Part shown: piece by piece, positions 117-9,478 of the stretch
How the letters are laid out: the number at the start of each line of letters is the position of its first letter
Position numbering within the stretch: position 1 is the first letter of the stretch
From: Eubacterium sp.
Lineage (GTDB): Bacteria > Bacillota_A > Clostridia > Lachnospirales > Lachnospiraceae
DNA length: 9,478 bases
Reading direction: 5' to 3'
Assembly: GCA_023663915.1 (NCBI GenBank)
Contig: JAMPGN010000167.1
Coordinates: 1 to 9,478, forward strand
Position numbers and translations under genes: made by a program
The notes under the pieces: model-generated
The model's input: only the letters and a program-made list of their open reading frames with translations
What the model was told of the DNA's origin: nothing
The model's database searches: none

Positions 117-614
117 ATGTTTCTGAAACAGATGCTTCTTGGAATGATCGGGATCAGCAGTGGACTCATCGTATCGGCAGGCGTGTTTACCGTGCTGATC
201 TCGGTTGGACTGATTCCGAGATTTGCAGGTAAAATGCATGTAGCGAGGAAAATATTTGTTCTGGAAGAGATGGTGGTGTTCGGAACATTGTTTGGCGGGT
301 TTTTCAGCGTGTTTGGCGATTGGGGAATGATTGGTGAATTTGTGCGAAGGCACAGACTGTTCGGGGAACGTGCGACGGATGGCGTCTGGAATCTGATTGG
401 GACGATGTTTTTACTTCTGTTTGGCGTTTTTGCAGGAATTTTTGTGGGATGTCTGGCGCTTGCCATCGCGGAAATGCTGAATACGATACCGGTTTTTGCA
501 AGAAGGATCGGATTTCGGCATGGGCTGGGGATTGCGATTCTGGCGGTGGCACTTGGGAAATTGGTTGGGAGTCTGATTTATTTTACGCAACGGGTGTTTT
601 TGTATGGCGGATAA
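117..614 (+). CDS. spoVAB: Stage V sporulation protein AB (SpoVAB)
   Basis: This is a 165-residue integral membrane protein of the SpoVA system, which moves calcium-dipicolinic acid into the forespore and releases it at germination. Hydrophobic segments lie near residues 6-33, 52-66, 95-120 and 136-156. Family-like stretches include VGLIPRFA near 30-37, LALAIAEMLNTIPVFARRIG at 113-132 and ALGKLVGSLI near 145-154. The length is near what I recall for SpoVAB. The ATG at 117 is chosen because GGAAAGGA (99-106) precedes it by 10 nt. spoVAC follows after a 170-nt gap on the same strand, so the operon order is kept. Expression would be expected from the forespore factor sigma-G, but the operon promoter lies outside the window. 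Identification is from recalled family sequence. Confidence 0.85.
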   Translation: MFLKQMLLGMIGISSGLIVSAGVFTVLISVGLIPRFAGKMHVARKIFVLEEMVVFGTLFGGFFSVFGDWGMIGEFVRRHRLFGERATDGVWNLIGTMFLLLFGVFAGIFVGCLALAIAEMLNTIPVFARRIGFRHGLGIAILAVALGKLVGSLIYFTQRVFLYGG

Positions 615-784
615 TGAAGTATGCAAATGAAAAAATAAAAATAACATATGGTATTATATGTATGGTATTCTATAAAAGATAGATGGATGAAAACGAAAGG
701 CTCATGCTTTGGAATGATAAGTTGTAGAGAGATATAAGTGTAAGAAATCTAAAAATATATTTTGAAAAGAAGGGAAATAGAAAG

Positions 785-1273
785 ATGGCACAGAAAGATC
801 AGAAACCGCAAACGATGCAGGAGAAAAAGGAACAGGATTACAGGCAGCATGTGGACGAGGTGACTCCGAAATATAGTTTGCCGATACAGATGGTCAAAGC
901 ATTCGTAACGGGTGGTATTATATGCTTAATCGGACAGGCAATCTTGAATTATGCGACAAATAAAATGGGGCTTGATAAGGAGACGGCGGCGTCATGGTGT
1001 TCGATGTTGTTGGTGCTTGTCAGTGTTTTGCTCACAGGATTTAACCTGTATCCTAAGTTAGTGGAATGGGGCGGCGGAGGCGCGCTTGTGCCGATCACGG
1101 GATTTGCGAACTCTGTGGCATCAGCGGCGATTGAGTACCAGAAAGAAGGACAGGTATTCGGGATCGGCTGCAAGATTTTTACGATCGCGGGTCCGGTGAT
1201 CTTGTTTGGCATCGTGACGAGCTGGGGGCTGGGGTTTGTCTATTGGATTGGGACGTTGCTTGGGATTGTATAA
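785..1273 (+). CDS. spoVAC: Stage V sporulation protein AC (SpoVAC)
   Basis: This 162-residue membrane protein is a core SpoVA component; in Bacillus subtilis SpoVAC behaves as a mechanosensitive channel and takes part in dipicolinic acid release. A charged cytoplasmic N-terminus (1-33) is followed by hydrophobic segments near 40-57, 72-90 and 133-160. The central stretch FNLYPKLVEWGGGGALVPIT (86-105), then GFANSVASAAIEYQKEGQVF, is very typical of the family. The start is supported by AAGAAGGGA (767-775), 9 nt upstream. The 170-nt gap after spoVAB is long for an operon and AT-rich, so an internal promoter is possible, but I found no convincing sigma-G site. The usual next genes, spoVAD and spoVAE, are absent; a carbohydrate phosphorylase follows instead. 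Confidence 0.93.
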   Translation: MAQKDQKPQTMQEKKEQDYRQHVDEVTPKYSLPIQMVKAFVTGGIICLIGQAILNYATNKMGLDKETAASWCSMLLVLVSVLLTGFNLYPKLVEWGGGGALVPITGFANSVASAAIEYQKEGQVFGIGCKIFTIAGPVILFGIVTSWGLGFVYWIGTLLGIV

Positions 1274-1274
1274 A

Positions 1275-1300
1275 AACAAAGATACTGCTTTGTTATTCTT
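1275..1300 (+). terminator. Weak possible terminator after spoVAC
   Basis: AACAAAG (1275-1281) and CTTTGTT (1288-1294) form a 7-bp, A/T-rich stem with a 6-nt loop directly after the spoVAC stop codon, followed by ATTCTT. The U-tract is poor and the stem weak, and the next promoter overlaps it, so it would be inefficient at best. Confidence 0.35.
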
Positions 1301-1317
1301 CCGTTATCAGTTATAAT
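1290..1317 (+). promoter_or_regulatory. Sigma-A-type promoter for the GH112 phosphorylase
   Basis: TTGTTA (1290-1295) is separated by 16 nt from a perfect TATAAT (1312-1317), followed by an A/T-rich start region. The predicted leader is about 30 nt. It contains a short hairpin, GAGGC (1326-1330) with GCCTC (1336-1340), just before the GGAGG ribosome binding site at 1346-1350. The phosphorylase is therefore probably transcribed independently of spoVA. Confidence 0.55.
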
Positions 1318-1355
1318 AAATAACAGAGGCACACCGCCTCAGAACGGAGGTAATT

Positions 1356-3518
1356 ATGGTGCATGAAGTGACGGGAAGATTGACTTTGCCGACGGATGTG
1401 GACATGGTTGAGGAGACGATACGTTTAAAAGAACTGTTGGGGGCGGATGCGCTGCGGGATTGTGACGGAACGAATATGCCGCCGGAGCTTTTGAGTCAGG
1501 ACGCAAAGATTTATGCGACTTATTATACGACTAGAAAAGACAATGAATGGGCGATGAAGAATCCGGAAGAGATACAGCAGGAGTATCTGATTAGCGACCG
1601 GGTGACGGCTAAGGGGGAAAGTCTGCGTATCGAACTGATGAAAGGATTTCATACGGAACAGCTTAGAGTCAATGCGATCGATGATCCGAAGCGGTGGTGG
1701 GAAGTTATTGACAGGACGATGGGTGAGATTGTGTCCGTGGACAAATGGGAATATGACGTGGAGACGGGGGAAGTGGTGATTGAGACGGTTCCCTACCATC
1801 AGTACACTGTCAGTTTCCTTGCTTTTCTCATATGGGACCCGGTGCATATGTACAATTTTATCACCAATGACTGGAAAGATGCACCGCACCAGCTTACATA
1901 CGATGTCAGACAGCCGAAGACGCAGGCTTATGTGAAGGATAAATTGAGACGGTGGTGCGAGGAGAATCCGGATGTGGATGTGGTGCGTTTCACGACGTTT
2001 TTCCATCAGTTTACGCTTACGTTTGATGACCAAAAAAGGGAGAAGTTCGTGGAATGGTTCGGCTACAGCGCGAGCGTCAGCCCTTATATACTAGAGCAGT
2101 TCGAGAAATGGGCAGGTTACAGGTTCCGGCCAGAGTTTATCGTGGACCAGGGCTATCATAATTCCATTTTCCGGGTTCCTTCCAAAGAATTTCAGGATTT
2201 TATCGAGTTTCAGCAGATCGAAGTTTCCAAATTGGCAAAAGATTTGGTTGATATTGTCCACAGCTACGGTAAAGAGGCGATGATGTTCCTTGGAGACCAC
2301 TGGATTGGGACGGAGCCTTTCGGAAAATATTTTCAGAATATCGGGCTGGATGCGGTGGTCGGCTCTGTCGGGGATGGCGTCACGCTGCGCATGATTTCAG
2401 ATATTCAGGGCGTGAAATATACGGAAGGACGACTATTGCCATACTTTTTCCTGGATGTATTTACCGAGGGCGGCGATCCCATCGGTGAGGCGCAGGATAA
2501 CTGGCTGAAAGCGAGGAGGGCGATCTTACGCTCGCCGCTTGACAGGATTGGTTACGGCGGTTATCTGAAACTGGCAAGCGAGTGGCCGGGATTCATCGAT
2601 CAGATTCAGAAAGTAGTGGATGAGTTTCGCCAGATTCATGAGAATATGCAGGGGACGAAAGCATATACCGCGCCTTTTAAGGTTGGCATCCTAAACTGCT
2701 GGGGCAATCTGAGGAGATGGATGGCGAATCAGGTGCATCACGCGCTCTGGTATCGTGAGATTTATTCTTATGTGGGCGTGATCGAATGTTTGAGCGGAAT
2801 GCCGATCGACGTGGAGTTTCTCACTTTTGATGAGGTGCGGGAAGGGATCGACCCTGACATCAAAGTCATCATTAATGCGGGCGATGCCTACACTTCATGG
2901 AGCGGCGCCGAGAACTGGAAGGATGAAAGGGTCGTGTGCGCGATCCGCCGTTTTGTGGATGAGGGTGGTGGCTTTATCGGTGTCGGGGAACCGAGCGCAT
3001 ACCAATATCAGGGACGTTTTTTCCAGTTAAGCGACGTGCTGGGCGTGGATAGGGAGTTGGGTTTTTCCATGAGTACCGACAAGTACAACGAGATGGACGA
3101 CAGGCATTTTATTCTGGAAGACATCGAGGGGGATATCGATTTCGGTGAGGGTAAGAGCCGTATTTATGCGCAAGGAGAGCATTACCAGATACTTAATATG
3201 GACGGGAAATACAGCCGCCTCGTGGTCAACGAGTACGGCAAAGGGCGGAGCGTTTACTTCGCGGGACTGCCCTATTCTCCGCAGAATTGCCGTATCCTGC
3301 TCCGGGCAATCTACTATGCGGCGCATCAGGAGGAGGAAATGAAGAAGTTCTATGTCACAAACGTAGAGACGGAACTAGCGGTGTTTGAGAGGAGCGGCAA
3401 GATCGCAGTAATCAATAATTCCAAAGAGCCGAAACAGACGCAGCTTTATGTATACGGAAAGTTAAAGGAGGAGCTTGATCTGGCGCCTATGGAGATGCGG
3501 TGGGTGGATTATCACTAG
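1356..3518 (+). CDS. lnpA: GH112 beta-galactoside phosphorylase (lacto-N-biose/galacto-N-biose type)
   Basis: This 720-residue cytosolic enzyme of glycoside hydrolase family 112 uses phosphate to split beta-galactosyl disaccharides, giving galactose 1-phosphate and the acceptor sugar (GlcNAc, GalNAc or, in some members, rhamnose). Conservation with the Bifidobacterium longum enzyme runs through most of the length: GADALRDCDGT (29-39), YTVSFLAFLIWDPVHMYN (150-167), VVRFTTFFHQFTL (209-221), MMFLGDHWIGTEP (309-321), KYTEGRLLPYFF (354-365), RRAILRSP (387-394) and EYGKGR (626-631). Asp314 aligns with the catalytic acid (Asp313 in B. longum). Arg34, Asn167, Arg211 and Arg359 line up with residues I recall as substrate-binding. 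No signal peptide is visible, fitting intracellular phosphorolysis. GGAGG ends 5 nt before ATG. No transporter or hexosamine kinase gene is adjacent, so the disaccharide source is unknown. The galactosyl-rhamnose phosphorylase subgroup cannot be excluded. Confidence 0.9.
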   Translation: MVHEVTGRLTLPTDVDMVEETIRLKELLGADALRDCDGTNMPPELLSQDAKIYATYYTTRKDNEWAMKNPEEIQQEYLISDRVTAKGESLRIELMKGFHTEQLRVNAIDDPKRWWEVIDRTMGEIVSVDKWEYDVETGEVVIETVPYHQYTVSFLAFLIWDPVHMYNFITNDWKDAPHQLTYDVRQPKTQAYVKDKLRRWCEENPDVDVVRFTTFFHQFTLTFDDQKREKFVEWFGYSASVSPYILEQFEKWAGYRFRPEFIVDQGYHNSIFRVPSKEFQDFIEFQQIEVSKLAKDLVDIVHSYGKEAMMFLGDHWIGTEPFGKYFQNIGLDAVVGSVGDGVTLRMISDIQGVKYTEGRLLPYFFLDVFTEGGDPIGEAQDNWLKARRAILRSPLDRIGYGGYLKLASEWPGFIDQIQKVVDEFRQIHENMQGTKAYTAPFKVGILNCWGNLRRWMANQVHHALWYREIYSYVGVIECLSGMPIDVEFLTFDEVREGIDPDIKVIINAGDAYTSWSGAENWKDERVVCAIRRFVDEGGGFIGVGEPSAYQYQGRFFQLSDVLGVDRELGFSMSTDKYNEMDDRHFILEDIEGDIDFGEGKSRIYAQGEHYQILNMDGKYSRLVVNEYGKGRSVYFAGLPYSPQNCRILLRAIYYAAHQEEEMKKFYVTNVETELAVFERSGKIAVINNSKEPKQTQLYVYGKLKEELDLAPMEMRWVDYH

Positions 3519-3599
3519 CAAGAGGCAGAGAAATGCGGTTTTGGCAGAATGATGCTGTGCAAAAGCAGTTAAGGATTGAGAATATTTAAATAAGTTATC

Positions 3600-5812: not shown

Positions 5813-6596
5813 AATCCACACACCTGTTATTTTTATGCTAACGGTTTGCATTGTTGTCGGCGGTTGGTTTTTGACGGCAGGGATACTAAAGAAGCAGCAG
5901 GAAAAGTTCTTGCATACAACAGGCAGGATCGAAGCAGGAACGGGGGAAAGTGCGCTTTTGACGGACAGTGAGCGGGATACCGTGCAGGAACAAGAAGTGG
6001 AAGAAAGCGAGTTTCACGGGCAGGTAATGTCTGAGGAATTGCGGGCGATTGTGTTGTCTGTGTGGAGATACGGCGGCAGTGAAACGCTTCATGAACCGCT
6101 CTCCGGTCAGATGAATATGGAACAGGCGATCGACGCGGCTCAAAAATGGATTCAGAATATGGTGGAACATGGTGTTTATACGGATAAATTGCAGGCGAGC
6201 GAGTCCGATAGGGTCAAGGCAAGTCTGTGTACCCTTGATACGCAGTTGATTGTCAGCAATATTGAGAAGTCTATGTATAGTTATTGGAAAATATGGGTTA
6301 GGAAAGATAACGGCGTATCAATCGAATTGACGATCCATGCACAGAGTGGCGAGGTATGGATGGCGGGTATCACCGTGGAGACGGGAGATGAGCCGTCGGA
6401 GACATACGATCTGGCGTATTTGCTGCAATATGCTTTTCCGTTTATGGAGGCGGGGAATACAACGTGGGTGGATCGGGAGAATAAAGTGGTGGCGGAGAGT
6501 TCCCAAAATGGAATGGTTACGGCGATGGCAAGGAGGTATATGCTTATGGTAAGTGGGGAGCCGGAGAAGGTGGTGATGGAGTTTAAGCTGCAATGA
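5796..6596 (+). CDS. Membrane-anchored extracytoplasmic protein of the two-component operon
   Basis: This 266-residue protein of unknown function has one N-terminal hydrophobic anchor (residues 9-31) and a mostly polar remainder that should lie outside the membrane. Cys18 (LTVC) does not fit a lipobox because Val precedes it. After an acidic Glu/Gln-rich linker (about 45-75) comes a folded part: NMEQAIDAAQKWIQNMVEHG, then YWKIWVRKDNGVSIELTIHA followed by QSGEVWMAGI. This resembles the helix-then-beta layout of PepSY-like domains, but only loosely. ATG at 5796 is preferred over an in-frame GTG at 5772 because GGAGG (5783-5787) sits 8 nt before it. Overlap with the kinase gene suggests it acts with the sensor, for example as an accessory or periplasm-facing signal-input protein. 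That role is inference. Confidence 0.75.
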   Translation: MSEGNRIHTPVIFMLTVCIVVGGWFLTAGILKKQQEKFLHTTGRIEAGTGESALLTDSERDTVQEQEVEESEFHGQVMSEELRAIVLSVWRYGGSETLHEPLSGQMNMEQAIDAAQKWIQNMVEHGVYTDKLQASESDRVKASLCTLDTQLIVSNIEKSMYSYWKIWVRKDNGVSIELTIHAQSGEVWMAGITVETGDEPSETYDLAYLLQYAFPFMEAGNTTWVDRENKVVAESSQNGMVTAMARRYMLMVSGEPEKVVMEFKLQ

Positions 6597-6964: not shown

Positions 6965-7014
6965 AAAAAGTGGATGCGTTTTCCACTTAAGAGGGACGCA
7001 TCCACGGTCTTTTT
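6965..7014. terminator. Bidirectional terminator between convergent units
   Basis: GTGGATGCGT (6970-6979) pairs perfectly with ACGCATCCAC (6996-7005), loop 16 nt. Five As (6965-6969) precede the stem and CTTTTT (7009-7014) follows it, so both strands have a U-tract. On the minus strand it directly follows the stop codon of the Rpn-type gene. Confidence 0.8.
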
Positions 7015-7992
7015 ACCAATATTGTTTTACGGTCTCACTGGATTCACTTTCGGACAAATGAAACCTTTCTGCAATACGTTTTATTGTGTCAGCTAATGAT
7101 ACCTCTAAATCTTTGTATGTTTCCACTGCGCCTTTAATCTGACCGGCTAATTCGCTTTCTTCCCGCATTTGTTGAATTGCCAAACACATATTAACATCTC
7201 CTTTCCCTTCGGGATATTTTAATTTGGAGCCTGTAACGATATTGATTATATCTGCCGCCTGCCTTTCCACGTTTTGGAAATGGAAATCTTTTTTTATAAT
7301 TTCGTTTAACTTTGCTTTATCCTTAGAATATTTGATATATAGCATCACTTCCCGCAGGTTTGAGTGAAAATCATTAATTTTCTCATCGGACATCTCCTTT
7401 GGAGCAATCAGATTTACATGATAATCCGGTGCATGTGCAAGGATTACGCTGTTGGTATTGGAATACATTTCTTTTAAAGAAAGGGGTGCATCCCAATTAT
7501 CCGATCCAAAATAGATTACGAGGGTGATGATAGGTATCAGGCGATCTGTTTTCCAGAAGCCGCTCAAAAATTCACCATCGGTTGGTTTCTCTTTATCTGG
7601 CTGTCCTGTTCCTGCTTCTTTTTCTTTGATGGTCTGCCTATGGGAGTTGGCGGCTTTGCTTACTTGGTGGGACAGATGAAGAAAGTCATAAACGCCGTTC
7701 TTAACAGGGAGAGCATAATGAATCTCCGCTTGGTTTTCGATGCCATGACGCAGTACGCAACATCTCCGTCTGTCATGGCATGTAAGAGTTTTAACACATC
7801 TCTGTATTTTTGCTCTGGAACGCTTGCGTTATTGGTTCCATACGGAACTACAATTCCCGTAGTGTCCAGTTCTGTTAGCCGGGTGGGGTCAATTTTCTGC
7901 TCCCCATGGTAAAGGAACTGATTGAACGCGTCGGCAAAAACGACTGGATTCGCCATGTATTCCTTGGCTATAATATCTATCTTTCCCATCAT
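7013..7992 (-). pseudogene. Rpn-family PD-(D/E)XK nuclease/putative transposase, frameshifted
   Basis: Rpn (YhgA-like) proteins are recombination-promoting nucleases once annotated as transposases. Codons 1-82 (MGKIDIIAKEYM to AYCVM, ending at 7744) are in one frame. The rest (IENQAEIHYALPVKNGVYDF through LSGFWKTD to ETVKQYW) continues in another frame to the stop at 7013-7015. Family members read YCVMGIENQ, so one G is missing from ATGG(G)CATC on the minus strand, plus position about 7743-7744. The break lies in the nuclease core, between RDVLK (63-67) and the E-N-Q motif. Restored length would be about 326 residues, normal for the family. The start is at 7992 or 7989 (tandem ATGs) with AGAAAGGA at 7998-8005. 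No other disruption is visible, so the mutation is recent, a sequencing error, or suppressed. Confidence 0.85.
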
Positions 7993-8017
7993 GAGGTTCC
8001 TTTCTGCTGCTGCTAAT

Positions 8018-8046
8018 AGTATACATTTAAAAATACTTTTCCTCAA
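8018..8046 (-). promoter_or_regulatory. Promoter of the Rpn-type gene
   Basis: On the minus strand, TTGAGG (8046-8041), a 17-nt spacer and TATACT (8023-8018) give a good sigma-A promoter ending 26 nt before the first ATG. It lies outside the invertible element, so inversion would not separate it from its gene. Confidence 0.6.
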
Positions 8047-8164
8047 TAGTCTTTGCAAAATTTTATAGTTGAAAATCCCCAAGTTGTCCATGACACTATG
8101 TGGGCATGAGTTATATAATGAAAACTCCACCAAAATGTATAAAGCGTAAAATATATGGTTATAC

Positions 8165-8213
8165 AAACAACGAGATGCAACAATTTACTATGAAATGTTG
8201 CATCTCGTTGTTT
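8165..8213. repeat. Left recombination site (inverted repeat, extended dyad)
   Basis: Inverted arms GATGCAACA (8174-8182) and TGTTGCATC (8196-8204) flank a 13-nt asymmetric core, ATTTACTATGAAA (8183-8195). Positions 8175-8204 are the exact reverse complement of 8955-8984. Here the dyad continues outward to an 18-bp perfect stem (8165-8182 with 8196-8213), which the right site lacks. The arms are the expected recombinase-binding elements and the core the strand-exchange region. As RNA it would form a very stable hairpin. Confidence 0.88.
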
Positions 8214-8222
8214 ACACAATAT

Positions 8223-8249
8223 ATATCGGAGCGATTTCAAAGTTCTTTA
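8223..8249 (-). promoter_or_regulatory. Sigma-28 (SigD/FliA) flagellar-class promoter on the invertible element
   Basis: On the minus strand TAAA (8249-8246), exactly 15 nt, then TCCGATAT (8230-8223). The SigD consensus is TAAA-N15-GCCGATAT, so only the first base of the -10 box differs; TAAAG also fits the longer enteric -35. The start site would be near 8216, at the edge of the left repeat. At present it reads leftward into the Rpn-type region. Inverted, it would read into csrA. Confidence 0.8.
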
Positions 8250-8269
8250 TAGTGAAATGAAAAATTTTT

Positions 8270-8302
8270 AAAAAAATTTATCCGCCATGCTTTTCACGGT
8301 GG
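8270..8302 (-). terminator. Intrinsic terminator of the recombinase gene
   Basis: Read on the minus strand, CCACCGTG (8302-8295) pairs with CATGGCGG (8289-8282) with one A-C mismatch and one G-T wobble, loop AAAAG. ATAAA and then seven Ts (8276-8270) follow. It lies between the recombinase stop and the sigma-28 promoter, so recombinase transcription should not run on into whatever gene lies beyond the repeat. Confidence 0.6.
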
Positions 8303-8312
8303 TATCACTGCA

Positions 8313-8894
8313 TTATAGTTGCACGCTTAGGTAGATTTTGTCCCGGTCATCCTGCTCAATTCCCAGATACCGCGTGGTAGTGCGGTAGGAAGAATGGTTG
8401 TAAATATCCATCAGTATAGCGGGCTGCGCGCCCTGCTGCCATGCCTGATAACCAAAAGTCTTGCGCAGGGAATGGCAACTGATATGATCTTCCAATCCGG
8501 CATATTCTGCCGCTTCCCTGATGATGCGGAACGCCTGCGAACGGGAGAGAGGTTCGTCCGGGTATCTGGTACTGGGGAAAAGGTATTGTTCCTCATCATG
8601 GTAATGACAATTCTGTTGTAAAAAGGTTAAAGTCTCATGGACGGAAGTGTTGATTGCTACCATTCTTTGTTTTCCTGTTTTCTGTTCATTGACGCAGATG
8701 TGCGCTTTGAAACAGTTTGTCTTCTGATTGTACACATCTTTCCATTTCAGATGCAGCAGGTCGCTGATGCGGAAGGCGGTATTCAATCCCAGAATGATCA
8801 TCGCATAGTTGCGGTAAATCGGTTTTTCTTCTAAAAAATATTTCTTGAATTTTTCGAGTTGTTCCTTGTTTTTGATTGGACAGGCTGTACTCAT
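8313..8894 (-). CDS. Tyrosine recombinase, catalytic-domain-only invertase type
   Basis: This 193-residue member of the phage-integrase (tyrosine recombinase) family has all catalytic residues: Arg42 (TAFRISDLLHLKW), Lys72 (QKTGK), His141 and Arg144 (HSLRKTFGYQAW), His167 (NHSSYRTT) and nucleophile Tyr176 (TRYLG). It lacks the separate N-terminal arm- and core-binding domains of phage integrases; only about 30 residues precede the catalytic fold. That size matches the FimB/FimE invertases (about 200 residues) that flip the fim promoter. ATG at 8894 has AAAGGAGT (8908-8901) 6 nt upstream. It is the only gene inside the inverted repeats, which makes those repeats its likely substrate. A cassette or conjugative-element integrase is less likely, since there are no direct-repeat att sites or cargo genes. 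Confidence 0.92.
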   Translation of the reverse strand: MSTACPIKNKEQLEKFKKYFLEEKPIYRNYAMIILGLNTAFRISDLLHLKWKDVYNQKTNCFKAHICVNEQKTGKQRMVAINTSVHETLTFLQQNCHYHDEEQYLFPSTRYPDEPLSRSQAFRIIREAAEYAGLEDHISCHSLRKTFGYQAWQQGAQPAILMDIYNHSSYRTTTRYLGIEQDDRDKIYLSVQL

Positions 8895-8943
8895 TTTTTT
8901 ACTCCTTTACATTGGTATGATTTTATTTTTTACAATATATAAC

Positions 8944-8972
8944 ATTATACGACGGATGCAACATTTCATAGT
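8944..8972 (-). promoter_or_regulatory. Possible recombinase promoter overlapping the right repeat
   Basis: On the minus strand a perfect TATAAT (8949-8944) lies 50 nt before the recombinase ATG. At 17-nt spacing the -35 position (8972-8967, ACTATG) falls inside the core of the right repeat and is poor. An alternative is TTGCAT (8961-8956) with TATATT (8939-8934). In either case recombinase bound at its site would overlap the promoter, a simple route to autoregulation. Confidence 0.4.
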
Positions 8973-8985
8973 AAATTGTTGCATG
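8955..8985. repeat. Right recombination site (inverted repeat)
   Basis: GATGCAACA (8955-8963), core TTTCATAGTAAAT (8964-8976) and TGTTGCAT (8977-8984) are the exact reverse complement of the left site over 30 bp. The asymmetric cores point in opposite directions, which dictates inversion rather than deletion. The outer dyad stops at 8 bp, unlike the 18-bp left copy. It lies 44 nt before the csrA start codon. Confidence 0.88.
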
Positions 8986-9028: not shown

Positions 9029-9319
9029 ATGTTAAGACTCACAGTAAGCGCAGAAGACTATCTGATGATCGGAGAGGACGTAAAAATCGTTTTTCTCGGA
9101 GGGAGCAAGAACCATTTGAGAATCATGATTGACGCACCGAAGGAACTGAATGTTGTCCGCAGTAAAGTCATTGAGAACAATACCACGGACCCGGAGGAAA
9201 GAGAGAAGCTACCACACTATTACGCAGTGCCCGATCTTCCGGAAAAGTACCGGAAAAAGAAAGTCATGGTGAACGATTCTGTAAGGAAATCCAGAGTGAG
9301 TCGGACGGCAGGAGATTAA
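9029..9319 (+). CDS. csrA: CsrA-family translational regulator
   Basis: CsrA dimers bind GGA-containing hairpins in mRNA leaders and usually block the ribosome binding site; in many Firmicutes the main target is flagellin mRNA, with FliW as antagonist. The first 50 residues align without gaps to E. coli CsrA: MLRLTVSAEDYLMIG, VKIVFLGGSKNHLRI and DAPKELNVVRSKV. Leu4, Arg31 and the RNA-contact residue Arg44 are conserved. At 96 residues it is longer than the usual 60-75; the extra C-terminal part (about 51-96) is charged, ending in a basic KKK-RKSRVSR tail of unknown role. AAGGAGG (9015-9021) sits 7 nt before ATG. No promoter is visible in the 44 nt after the right repeat, so expression probably depends on transcription from inside the invertible element. 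fliW is not in the window. Confidence 0.92.
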   Translation: MLRLTVSAEDYLMIGEDVKIVFLGGSKNHLRIMIDAPKELNVVRSKVIENNTTDPEEREKLPHYYAVPDLPEKYRKKKVMVNDSVRKSRVSRTAGD

Positions 9320-9389: not shown

Positions 9390-9416
9390 AAAGTAAATTC
9401 CTTCGGAATTTACTTT
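9390..9416 (+). terminator. 12-bp hairpin between csrA and the next gene
   Basis: AAAGTAAATTCC (9390-9401) pairs perfectly with GGAATTTACTTT (9405-9416), loop TTC. The only Ts are the last three of the stem, followed by AAAC, so it is a weak or partial terminator at most. It could lower read-through from csrA into the next gene, or be an RNase stop or end-protection hairpin. Confidence 0.45.
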
Positions 9417-9426
9417 AAACAAACAA

Positions 9427-9466
9427 CGGCTGCAAACGGAATTGCGGCTGGCAAACACAAGGAGGT
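9427..9466 (+). promoter_or_regulatory. Two-site CsrA-binding leader of the next gene
   Basis: Site 1 is a 9-bp hairpin (9427-9435 with 9442-9450, two G-U wobbles) whose hexaloop, ACGGAA (9436-9441), displays GGA, the preferred CsrA presentation. Site 2 is ACAAGGAGGT (9457-9466), close to the ACARGGAUGU consensus and containing the Shine-Dalgarno GGAGG (9461-9465). The GGA cores are 23 nt apart. A hairpin site upstream and a second one over the ribosome binding site is the arrangement in the Bacillus subtilis hag leader. Confidence 0.7.
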
Positions 9467-9472
9467 AATATT

Positions 9473-9478
9473 ATGATA
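9473..9478 (+). CDS. Start of a gene leaving the window; candidate flagellin
   Basis: ATG at 9473 follows a strong GGAGG (9461-9465) with 7-nt spacing; only Met-Ile is visible before the window ends. The flagellin assignment is inferred from csrA directly upstream, the CsrA-site leader, and the nearby sigma-28 promoter. Some clostridial flagellins begin Met-Ile, which is compatible but proves nothing. Confidence 0.5.

Follow-up and report, generated by a model that had tools for sequence, protein, structure and literature searches.

The window analyzed here is the whole 9,478-nucleotide stretch of Eubacterium sp. contig JAMPGN010000167.1. Close to its right end lies a gene for a tyrosine recombinase of 193 aa (8313..8894, minus strand), placed between two inverted repeats and neighbored by a csrA-like gene of 96 aa on the plus strand (9029..9319). 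The window ends in the first two codons (ATG ATA; 9473..9478, plus strand) of the next gene, which is presumed to encode a flagellin, as a flagellin follows csrA in relatives. Two adjacent minus-strand ORFs in different frames (7013-7567 and 7660-8166) lie left of the element, the former with a sub-threshold match to Transposase_31 (YhgA-like); the pair (7013-8166) looks like a broken gene and is located downstream of the outward promoter described below. Farther left, positions 117-3518 encode SpoVAB, SpoVAC and a 1,3-beta-galactosyl-N-acetylhexosamine phosphorylase, and by inference from these genes the host would be a spore former using mucin or milk sugars.

As the initial annotation had proposed, the recombinase is a catalytic-domain-only enzyme. 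The match to PF00589 (Phage_integrase, E 9.8e-29) spans residues 11-177 of 193 and thus leaves no space for the usual N-terminal core-binding domain, and no other Pfam family is matched at E <= 0.001. Residues R42, K72, H141, R144, H167, and Y176, which we take to be the catalytic residues, are invariant across 35 aligned sequences, the window included, and four of the six align with PDB recombinases. The FimB/FimE-type comparison drawn in the same annotation needs correction. Specifically, ten NCBIfam recombinase models match the window recombinase, all below cut-off, and the curated invertase models are missed, with 55.5 bits against a cut-off of 222 for NF007371 (presumably the FimE-type model) and 42.8 bits against 221 for NF007370 (presumably the FimB-type model). 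The clade to which the protein belongs is sharply delimited, with matches in 31 genomes scoring either at least 225 or at most 55 bits.

The searches with the recombinase and with the csrA-like protein returned 4157 and 939 relatives, respectively. Several contigs are common to the best 120 of 4157 and the best 120 of 939 (for example those of 135775, 193921, 24646, and 90745 bases), which gave a first hint of synteny. Scanning the contigs of species genomes with the 35 aligned recombinases yielded 577 loci; among the best 80 of these, 45 are labelled Lachnospiraceae, and in 70 the recombinase is neighbored by a csrA-like gene (68 divergently transcribed, 2 downstream on the same strand). Cultured carriers include bacterium 0.1xD8-71 (L023) and Velocimicrobium porci (L048). 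The clade was found in 30 of 397 genomes sampled from the family of the Roseburia faecis genome G028, in 40/77 genomes of the genus of G001, and in 6/391 genomes drawn from the class, two of them already known. Altogether, 190 recombinase copies were merged to 123 distinct genes, of which 94 adjoin csrA (88 divergent, 6 downstream) and 29 do not, seven of the latter having less than 600 nt on one side. A flagellin N-terminus is encoded on the same strand within 900 nt downstream of csrA in 86 of the 94 csrA-linked units; six of the remaining ones end before a flagellin could appear, and no flagellin was found within this distance in L109 or in L006, whose sequence is partial. No match appeared when viral contigs were scanned with six patterns, leaving a phage origin without support, and an Rfam search of five sources gave a tRNA as its single match and no family at the switch.

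Some csrA-less relatives of the recombinase (L157, L158, L159, L160, L161, and L188; near 3001-3579) are also located between inverted repeats, beside glycan genes. Among ten neighbors scanned from L157, L160, L049, and L188, eight are sugar or glycan enzymes, comprising epimerase, nucleotidyl transferase, NeuB, SIS/HAD, and glycosyl and pyruvyl transferases. These units possibly switch between two divergent surface-sugar operons.

The repeats flanking the window recombinase are 30 nt long and 100% complementary (30/30), with 750 nt between the arms 8175-8204 and 8955-8984. They form a left, csrA-distal site (8175..8204, plus strand) and a right, csrA-proximal site (8955..8984, minus strand), which together with the DNA between them make up the putative invertible segment (8175..8984). 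The perfect repeats around a recombinase gene beside csrA were thus correctly recognized in the initial annotation, while its span of 8174..8985 is one base too wide at each end. Its description of the repeats as arm-core-arm with oppositely oriented cores is likewise borne out: the core TACTATG lies at 8186-8192 in the left site and its inverted copy at 8967-8973 in the right one. The start-to-start spacing of the sites is 780 in the window, with a median of 777 across 84 units, and the arms are kept in relatives.

To compare sites among relatives, we called them from the arms alone, as ATGCAACA-N12..15-TGTTGCAT with at least 11/16 arm positions, in 91 csrA-linked units (L131, L164, and L186 excluded). 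At this threshold a site pair is found in 84/91 units, spacer length is equal within 76 of the 84 pairs (54 expected), and the central 7 nt are identical within the locus in 72/76, whereas 2000 permutations of the partners averaged 4.9 and reached 12 at most. This threshold is not above background, since 95/182 shuffled flanks reach it and arm scores of 11-12 of 16 fall in the background range; the sites were therefore recounted at 14/16 or more. Both sites are then present in 63/91 units, with equal spacers in 61/63 and equal cores in 59/61, and none of the 182 shuffled flanks reaches the threshold. The site pairs of the csrA-linked units thus exceed what chance would give. Position by position, in a set picked by repeat matching and so biased towards identity, the arms are alike between loci and tolerate mismatches within a pair, while the cores differ between loci and seldom within one; cores compared between units agree at 3.3/7 positions. 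Arms conserved between loci and cores matching mainly within a locus are the look expected of a tyrosine recombinase crossover region. Additionally, none of 14 same-genome switch pairs shares a core, as against 4.2% between genomes, a difference that is not significant at n=14; distinct cores within a genome would agree with insulation, blocking recombination between switches.

The 108 nt from the recombinase stop to the left site contain, on the minus strand, TAAA-N15-TCCGATAT, near the sigma-28 flagellar consensus. This predicted promoter (TAAA-N16-CCGATA; 8224..8249, minus strand) is directed outward, away from csrA, and had been overlooked in the initial annotation together with the longer palindrome around the left site. 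The strict pattern is expected 0.02 times in the window and occurs twice; the second match (6185-6210, plus strand) lies within an ORF without Pfam match and is probably due to chance. Among the 88 csrA-divergent units, a strict outward promoter is present no farther than 300 nt from the 3' end of the recombinase gene, in the same place and direction, in 46, against 0/88 for each of the other three combinations of side and strand. At graded scores of 10 or more, the numbers are 71/87 outward against 0/87, 0/88, and 0/88 in the other directions, and 17/88 csrA-divergent units lack an outward promoter at this score. Mononucleotide shuffles gave a mean of 0.16 of 123 units and a maximum of 2 (200 shuffles). 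Among the 29 units without csrA, two have a strict match; the fixed-spacing pattern is present in 91/218 loci, in three of them twice. A predicted promoter thus sits between the inverted repeats and faces a gene in one orientation, as in invertons.

The left site is embedded in an extended palindrome (8165..8213, minus strand) with 21-nt arms, 95% complementary, at 8165-8185 and 8193-8213, which would form a terminator-like hairpin for the outward transcript. The minus-strand transcript of 8160-8222 is predicted to fold at -29.6 kcal/mol (z -8.34), against -10.4 (z -0.77) at the right site. We modelled both orientations by joining half-sites in 79 units (81 of 94 have repeat pairs, two of these without flank), a junction model that may drop one or two core bases. 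Away from csrA, the outward transcript forms the more stable hairpin in 74/79 units (mean -20.9 vs -12.4, p 9e-14; exceptions L002, L003, L006, L029, and L056), and the opposite inner arm, used as control, shows no difference in stability (p 0.38). Similarly, the 12 nt after the hairpin contain on average 7.8 T away from csrA against 2.5 toward csrA, with the higher content away from csrA in 77/79 units and equal contents in two. At the level of sequence and folding, an intrinsic terminator acting in the OFF orientation, as in cwpV, is therefore predicted. The predicted transcription start lies near 8216 in the window, roughly 10 nt inward of the distal site. The hairpin begins no more than about 10-15 nt from it, which is early for a terminator, and a terminator scan of the window that allowed loops of 3-8 omitted it.

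We define OFF as the orientation in which the promoter faces away from csrA. The window is OFF, its predicted transcript running into the terminator-like hairpin at the left site. Of the 94 csrA-linked units, 91 were classified as OFF and three as ON, with the promoter facing csrA (L047, L072, and L153); an outward promoter scoring at least 10 supports the OFF class in 71/88 divergent units, and the remainder were classed by gene orientation alone. L131, L164, and L186, taken as ON candidates by recombinase orientation, were rejected: their promoter lies on the opposite flank of the recombinase, directed away from csrA, so they were counted as OFF. L030 has a promoter facing a flagellin, no csrA and one clear site only. 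The most direct comparison is that of L153 with L150, whose recombinases are 86% identical and whose csrA-flagellin regions are colinear at about 77%. Their recombinase segments, by contrast, align in inverse orientation (789 nt, 75%); the breakpoints fall at the sites, and sequence inspection reveals that the half-sites are swapped at the core; both loci have a csrA-side site with a degenerate outer arm. A further case comes from genome G031, also home of L079, in which two csrA loci without recombinase, L203 and L204, each have a site-flanked segment upstream. The segment of L203 (112-443; cores match 7/7) contains a weaker sigma-28-like promoter facing csrA, and that of L204 (cores match 6/7) a clearly related one facing away from csrA, both scoring below the 9.5 cut-off and picked out by eye. 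A flagellin start was sought in L204 and not found. If this assignment is right, L203 and L204 would be paralogous switches of one genome in opposite orientations, and these recombinase-less segments may be served in trans. Opposite orientations thus occur here between relatives and, on this assignment, between paralogues; comparing orientation in related genomes was a check proposed in the initial annotation.

The csrA-like protein matches PF02599 over residues 1-50 (E 2.2e-16; 60 bits against a gathering cut-off of 27), followed by a long tail, and does not reach the NCBIfam csrA equivalogs (37.5 bits against 73 and 30.4 against 70.1); it is therefore regarded as a divergent CsrA. In 20 chosen genomes, a canonical CsrA (86-94 bits) is present in 19, one genome having two, and divergent copies score 50-67 bits, plus two weaker matches near 33-35 bits. 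The number of divergent CsrA copies equals that of clade recombinases in 16/20 genomes (exceptions G011, G028, G031, and G411), and in G023 one divergent CsrA and one clade recombinase are unpaired.

Downstream of csrA in the window, a hairpin with an ACGGA loop (9427..9450, plus strand; -13.3 kcal/mol, z -3.82) is followed by a ribosome-binding site and the ATG ATA at the window end. A 12-bp hairpin at 9390-9416, also between csrA and flagellin, is terminator-like on the minus strand only. In the 87 leaders excised from the 94 csrA-linked units, a hairpin of the CsrA type, with an A-N-GGA loop and a closing score of at least 4 pairs, is present in 75 (60 with at least 6), against a mean of 0.81 and a maximum of 4 in 100 mononucleotide shuffles. 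It is mostly located 34-43 nt before the start, beside AAGGAGG, and the A-N-GGA motif occurs 28-45 nt before the start in 77/87. Among 66 distinct leader hairpins, where the best-pairing motif was chosen for leaders with more than one, 426 of 462 stem cells pair (permuted 3' arms: mean 319, maximum 339), and two-sided changes at several pairs demonstrate covariation of the stem.

We also inspected 20 further regions chosen away from recombinases, three of them csrA-linked, for flagellin-like starts. Such a start is present in 13, of which nine have a sigma-28 promoter (score at least 10.5) within 220 nt upstream; the switched flagellin is thus likely an extra one. GGA-loop hairpins occur in both kinds of leader. 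In the unswitched flagellins L193, L196, and L207-L210, GCGGC surrounds AAGGA or ATGGA, in most cases at 35 nt from the start, whereas the hairpins of switched ones have longer stems and mostly carry ACGGA or AAGGA in the loop. This difference hints that CsrA has two specificities.

The sites, the recombinase, the promoter with its direction, the hairpins, the gene order, and the two orientations among relatives are all features of the DNA itself. Taken together, they make a recombinase-driven invertible promoter switch for csrA-flagellin, that is, a flagellin phase switch, well supported by comparison, and we put the probability of this reading at roughly 83%. Specifically, the small tyrosine recombinase would bind the conserved arms of both inverted sites flanking its own gene, and strand exchange within the 7-nt core would invert the ~780-bp segment, carrying along the outward sigma-28 promoter on the 3' side of the recombinase gene. 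When OFF, the promoter would point away from csrA and its transcript would soon run into the hairpin and U-rich tract made up by the left site and its flanks. When ON, the promoter would face csrA, the site would be joined to a different outer flank with loss of the terminator-like structure, and RNA polymerase would transcribe through csrA into the flagellin gene. The divergent CsrA encoded on the same transcript is predicted to bind flagellin mRNA at its GGA-loop hairpin and ribosome-binding site, by which it would tune its own flagellin and/or repress others. That the window recombinase is catalytically active, that transcription and termination proceed in this way, that CsrA binds, and that the switch is reversible in living cells are inferences. 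The proposal in the initial annotation that the element inverts itself and governs both csrA and the following gene is accordingly the best reading of the sequence, given the outward sigma-28 promoter, the relatives of opposite orientation, the crossover-type cores, and the orientation-dependent hairpin.

The same annotation had emphasized a motility switch acting through csrA. In such a reading, CsrA would be a global regulator turning motility on and off, and the flagellin would be incidental. This would suit the position of csrA as the first gene of the operon and the repression of flagellin translation by CsrA described for Bacillus subtilis (PMC6529632), yet we consider it unlikely, since a canonical CsrA is also encoded in 19/20 genomes, the csrA under the switch is a divergent one linked to a flagellin, and 9/13 other flagellin starts have their own sigma-28 promoter, so that filaments need not rely on the switch. 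Because the sampled genomes hold such additional flagellins, the switch probably serves flagellin variants rather than motility on/off. The bias of 91/94 units towards OFF is strong for a reversible switch and counts against an invertible one. It would be explained by a relic, once invertible and now locked or very rarely flipping, fixed OFF in most present species with the extra flagellin mostly silent. We regard a relic as quite improbable: the recombinase residues, the site cores and the promoter are conserved, which would be expected only if inversion were still of use, the ON units sit in separate places of the recombinase comparison, and a covarying hairpin is kept in the flagellin leaders.

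Two further accounts of the repeats fare worse. If they were merely terminators or operators of the recombinase gene, without any inversion, the terminator-like hairpin of the left site would be accommodated, but the matching cores, the opposite orientations with exchanged half-sites, and the direction of the promoter would all be left unexplained, which renders this account very improbable. A small transposon would likewise combine terminal inverted repeats with an internal tyrosine recombinase gene, and some genomes do contain several copies; with the csrA context fixed in 94/123 units, the promoter constantly placed, and viral contigs giving no match to the six patterns, we regard a transposon as least credible of all and rejected it on the fixed context and the promoter direction.

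On a wider and more tentative view, which we hold to be possible though somewhat less than even, gut Lachnospiraceae have independently evolved flagellar phase variation as complete as that of Salmonella. In addition to one to three self-inverting sigma-28 switches in each genome, there would be recombinase-less mini-switches supplied in trans; every switch would govern an extra flagellin and a dedicated CsrA paralogue, the latter replacing FljA by blocking translation of the competing flagellins. Distinct cores would keep the switches apart, and commensals whose flagellins the immune system targets would end up with a flagellin repertoire both combinatorial and heritable. Antibodies are reported to bind Lachnospiraceae flagellins in Crohn's disease and chronic fatigue syndrome (PMC11285207). 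If the extra flagellins are phase-variable, studies that assume a constant flagellin per species overlook a switch, and the orientation of reads in metagenomes already available would reveal directly which flagellin is on. If true, this would be a clear case of convergence on the Hin logic from unrelated parts, and the modular sites, promoter, and terminator make the system easy to test.

No description of this arrangement was found among the papers listed in searches of the open-licence literature; the initial annotation had likewise remarked that it is not a standard described arrangement. An inverton table in other sources may list such segments already. An annotation of motility genes in Roseburia and Eubacterium notes csrA at the fliC locus and contains neither the word 'recombinase' nor 'integrase' (PMC3720852). 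In a defined gut community, the clostridial invertons of group 139 also have a tyrosine recombinase nearby and shift orientation in culture (PMC11892184); the main text of this paper lacks 'flagell', 'Lachnospir', and 'Roseburia'. The putative fimbrial inverton of Providencia stuartii resembles the present element in that its 844-bp inverted segment encloses a recombinase ORF (PMC5903667), whereas it concerns fimbriae, with 14-bp imperfect repeats and neither csrA nor flagellin. In the E. coli fim system, small tyrosine recombinases (FimB/FimE) also invert a promoter segment (PMC2784873), but their genes lie outside it and the output is fimbriae, and the curated invertase models are not reached here.

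Two systems of Clostridioides difficile involve RecV. The cwpV switch shares a tyrosine recombinase, short inverted repeats, and a proposed intrinsic terminator when OFF (PMC2784873), while its promoter lies outside the inverted region and its recombinase gene elsewhere, both being inside here. The flagellar switch is likewise an inversion by a tyrosine recombinase that controls flagellar genes in a member of the Clostridia (PMC5903667), but acts on the flgB operon through 154-230 bp segments without a recombinase gene. On the post-transcriptional side, CsrA of the B. subtilis hag-CsrA-FliW system occludes the flagellin ribosome-binding site (PMC6529632). The leaders here similarly have a GGA-loop hairpin beside the ribosome-binding site; unlike hag, each switched flagellin is accompanied by an additional CsrA of the divergent kind.

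Functionally, hin-fljBA of Salmonella comes closest. In both systems the invertase gene lies inside the segment, the segment promoter reads into a flagellin operon, a second flagellin is encoded elsewhere, and a regulator is co-transcribed with the flagellin, here by prediction; in Salmonella this regulator is FljA, a repressor of fliC (PMC9368917). The segments are also close in size, with 966 bp in Salmonella (PMC5903667) and ~780 bp here. The components differ: Hin is a serine recombinase acting with hix sites, whereas the enzyme here is a tyrosine recombinase (PF00589) with unrelated sites. The present segment also has a sigma-28-type promoter and, when OFF, a terminator-like hairpin, and instead of FljA a CsrA-family protein is encoded ahead of the flagellin. 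The switch would therefore work like hin without being a member of that family.
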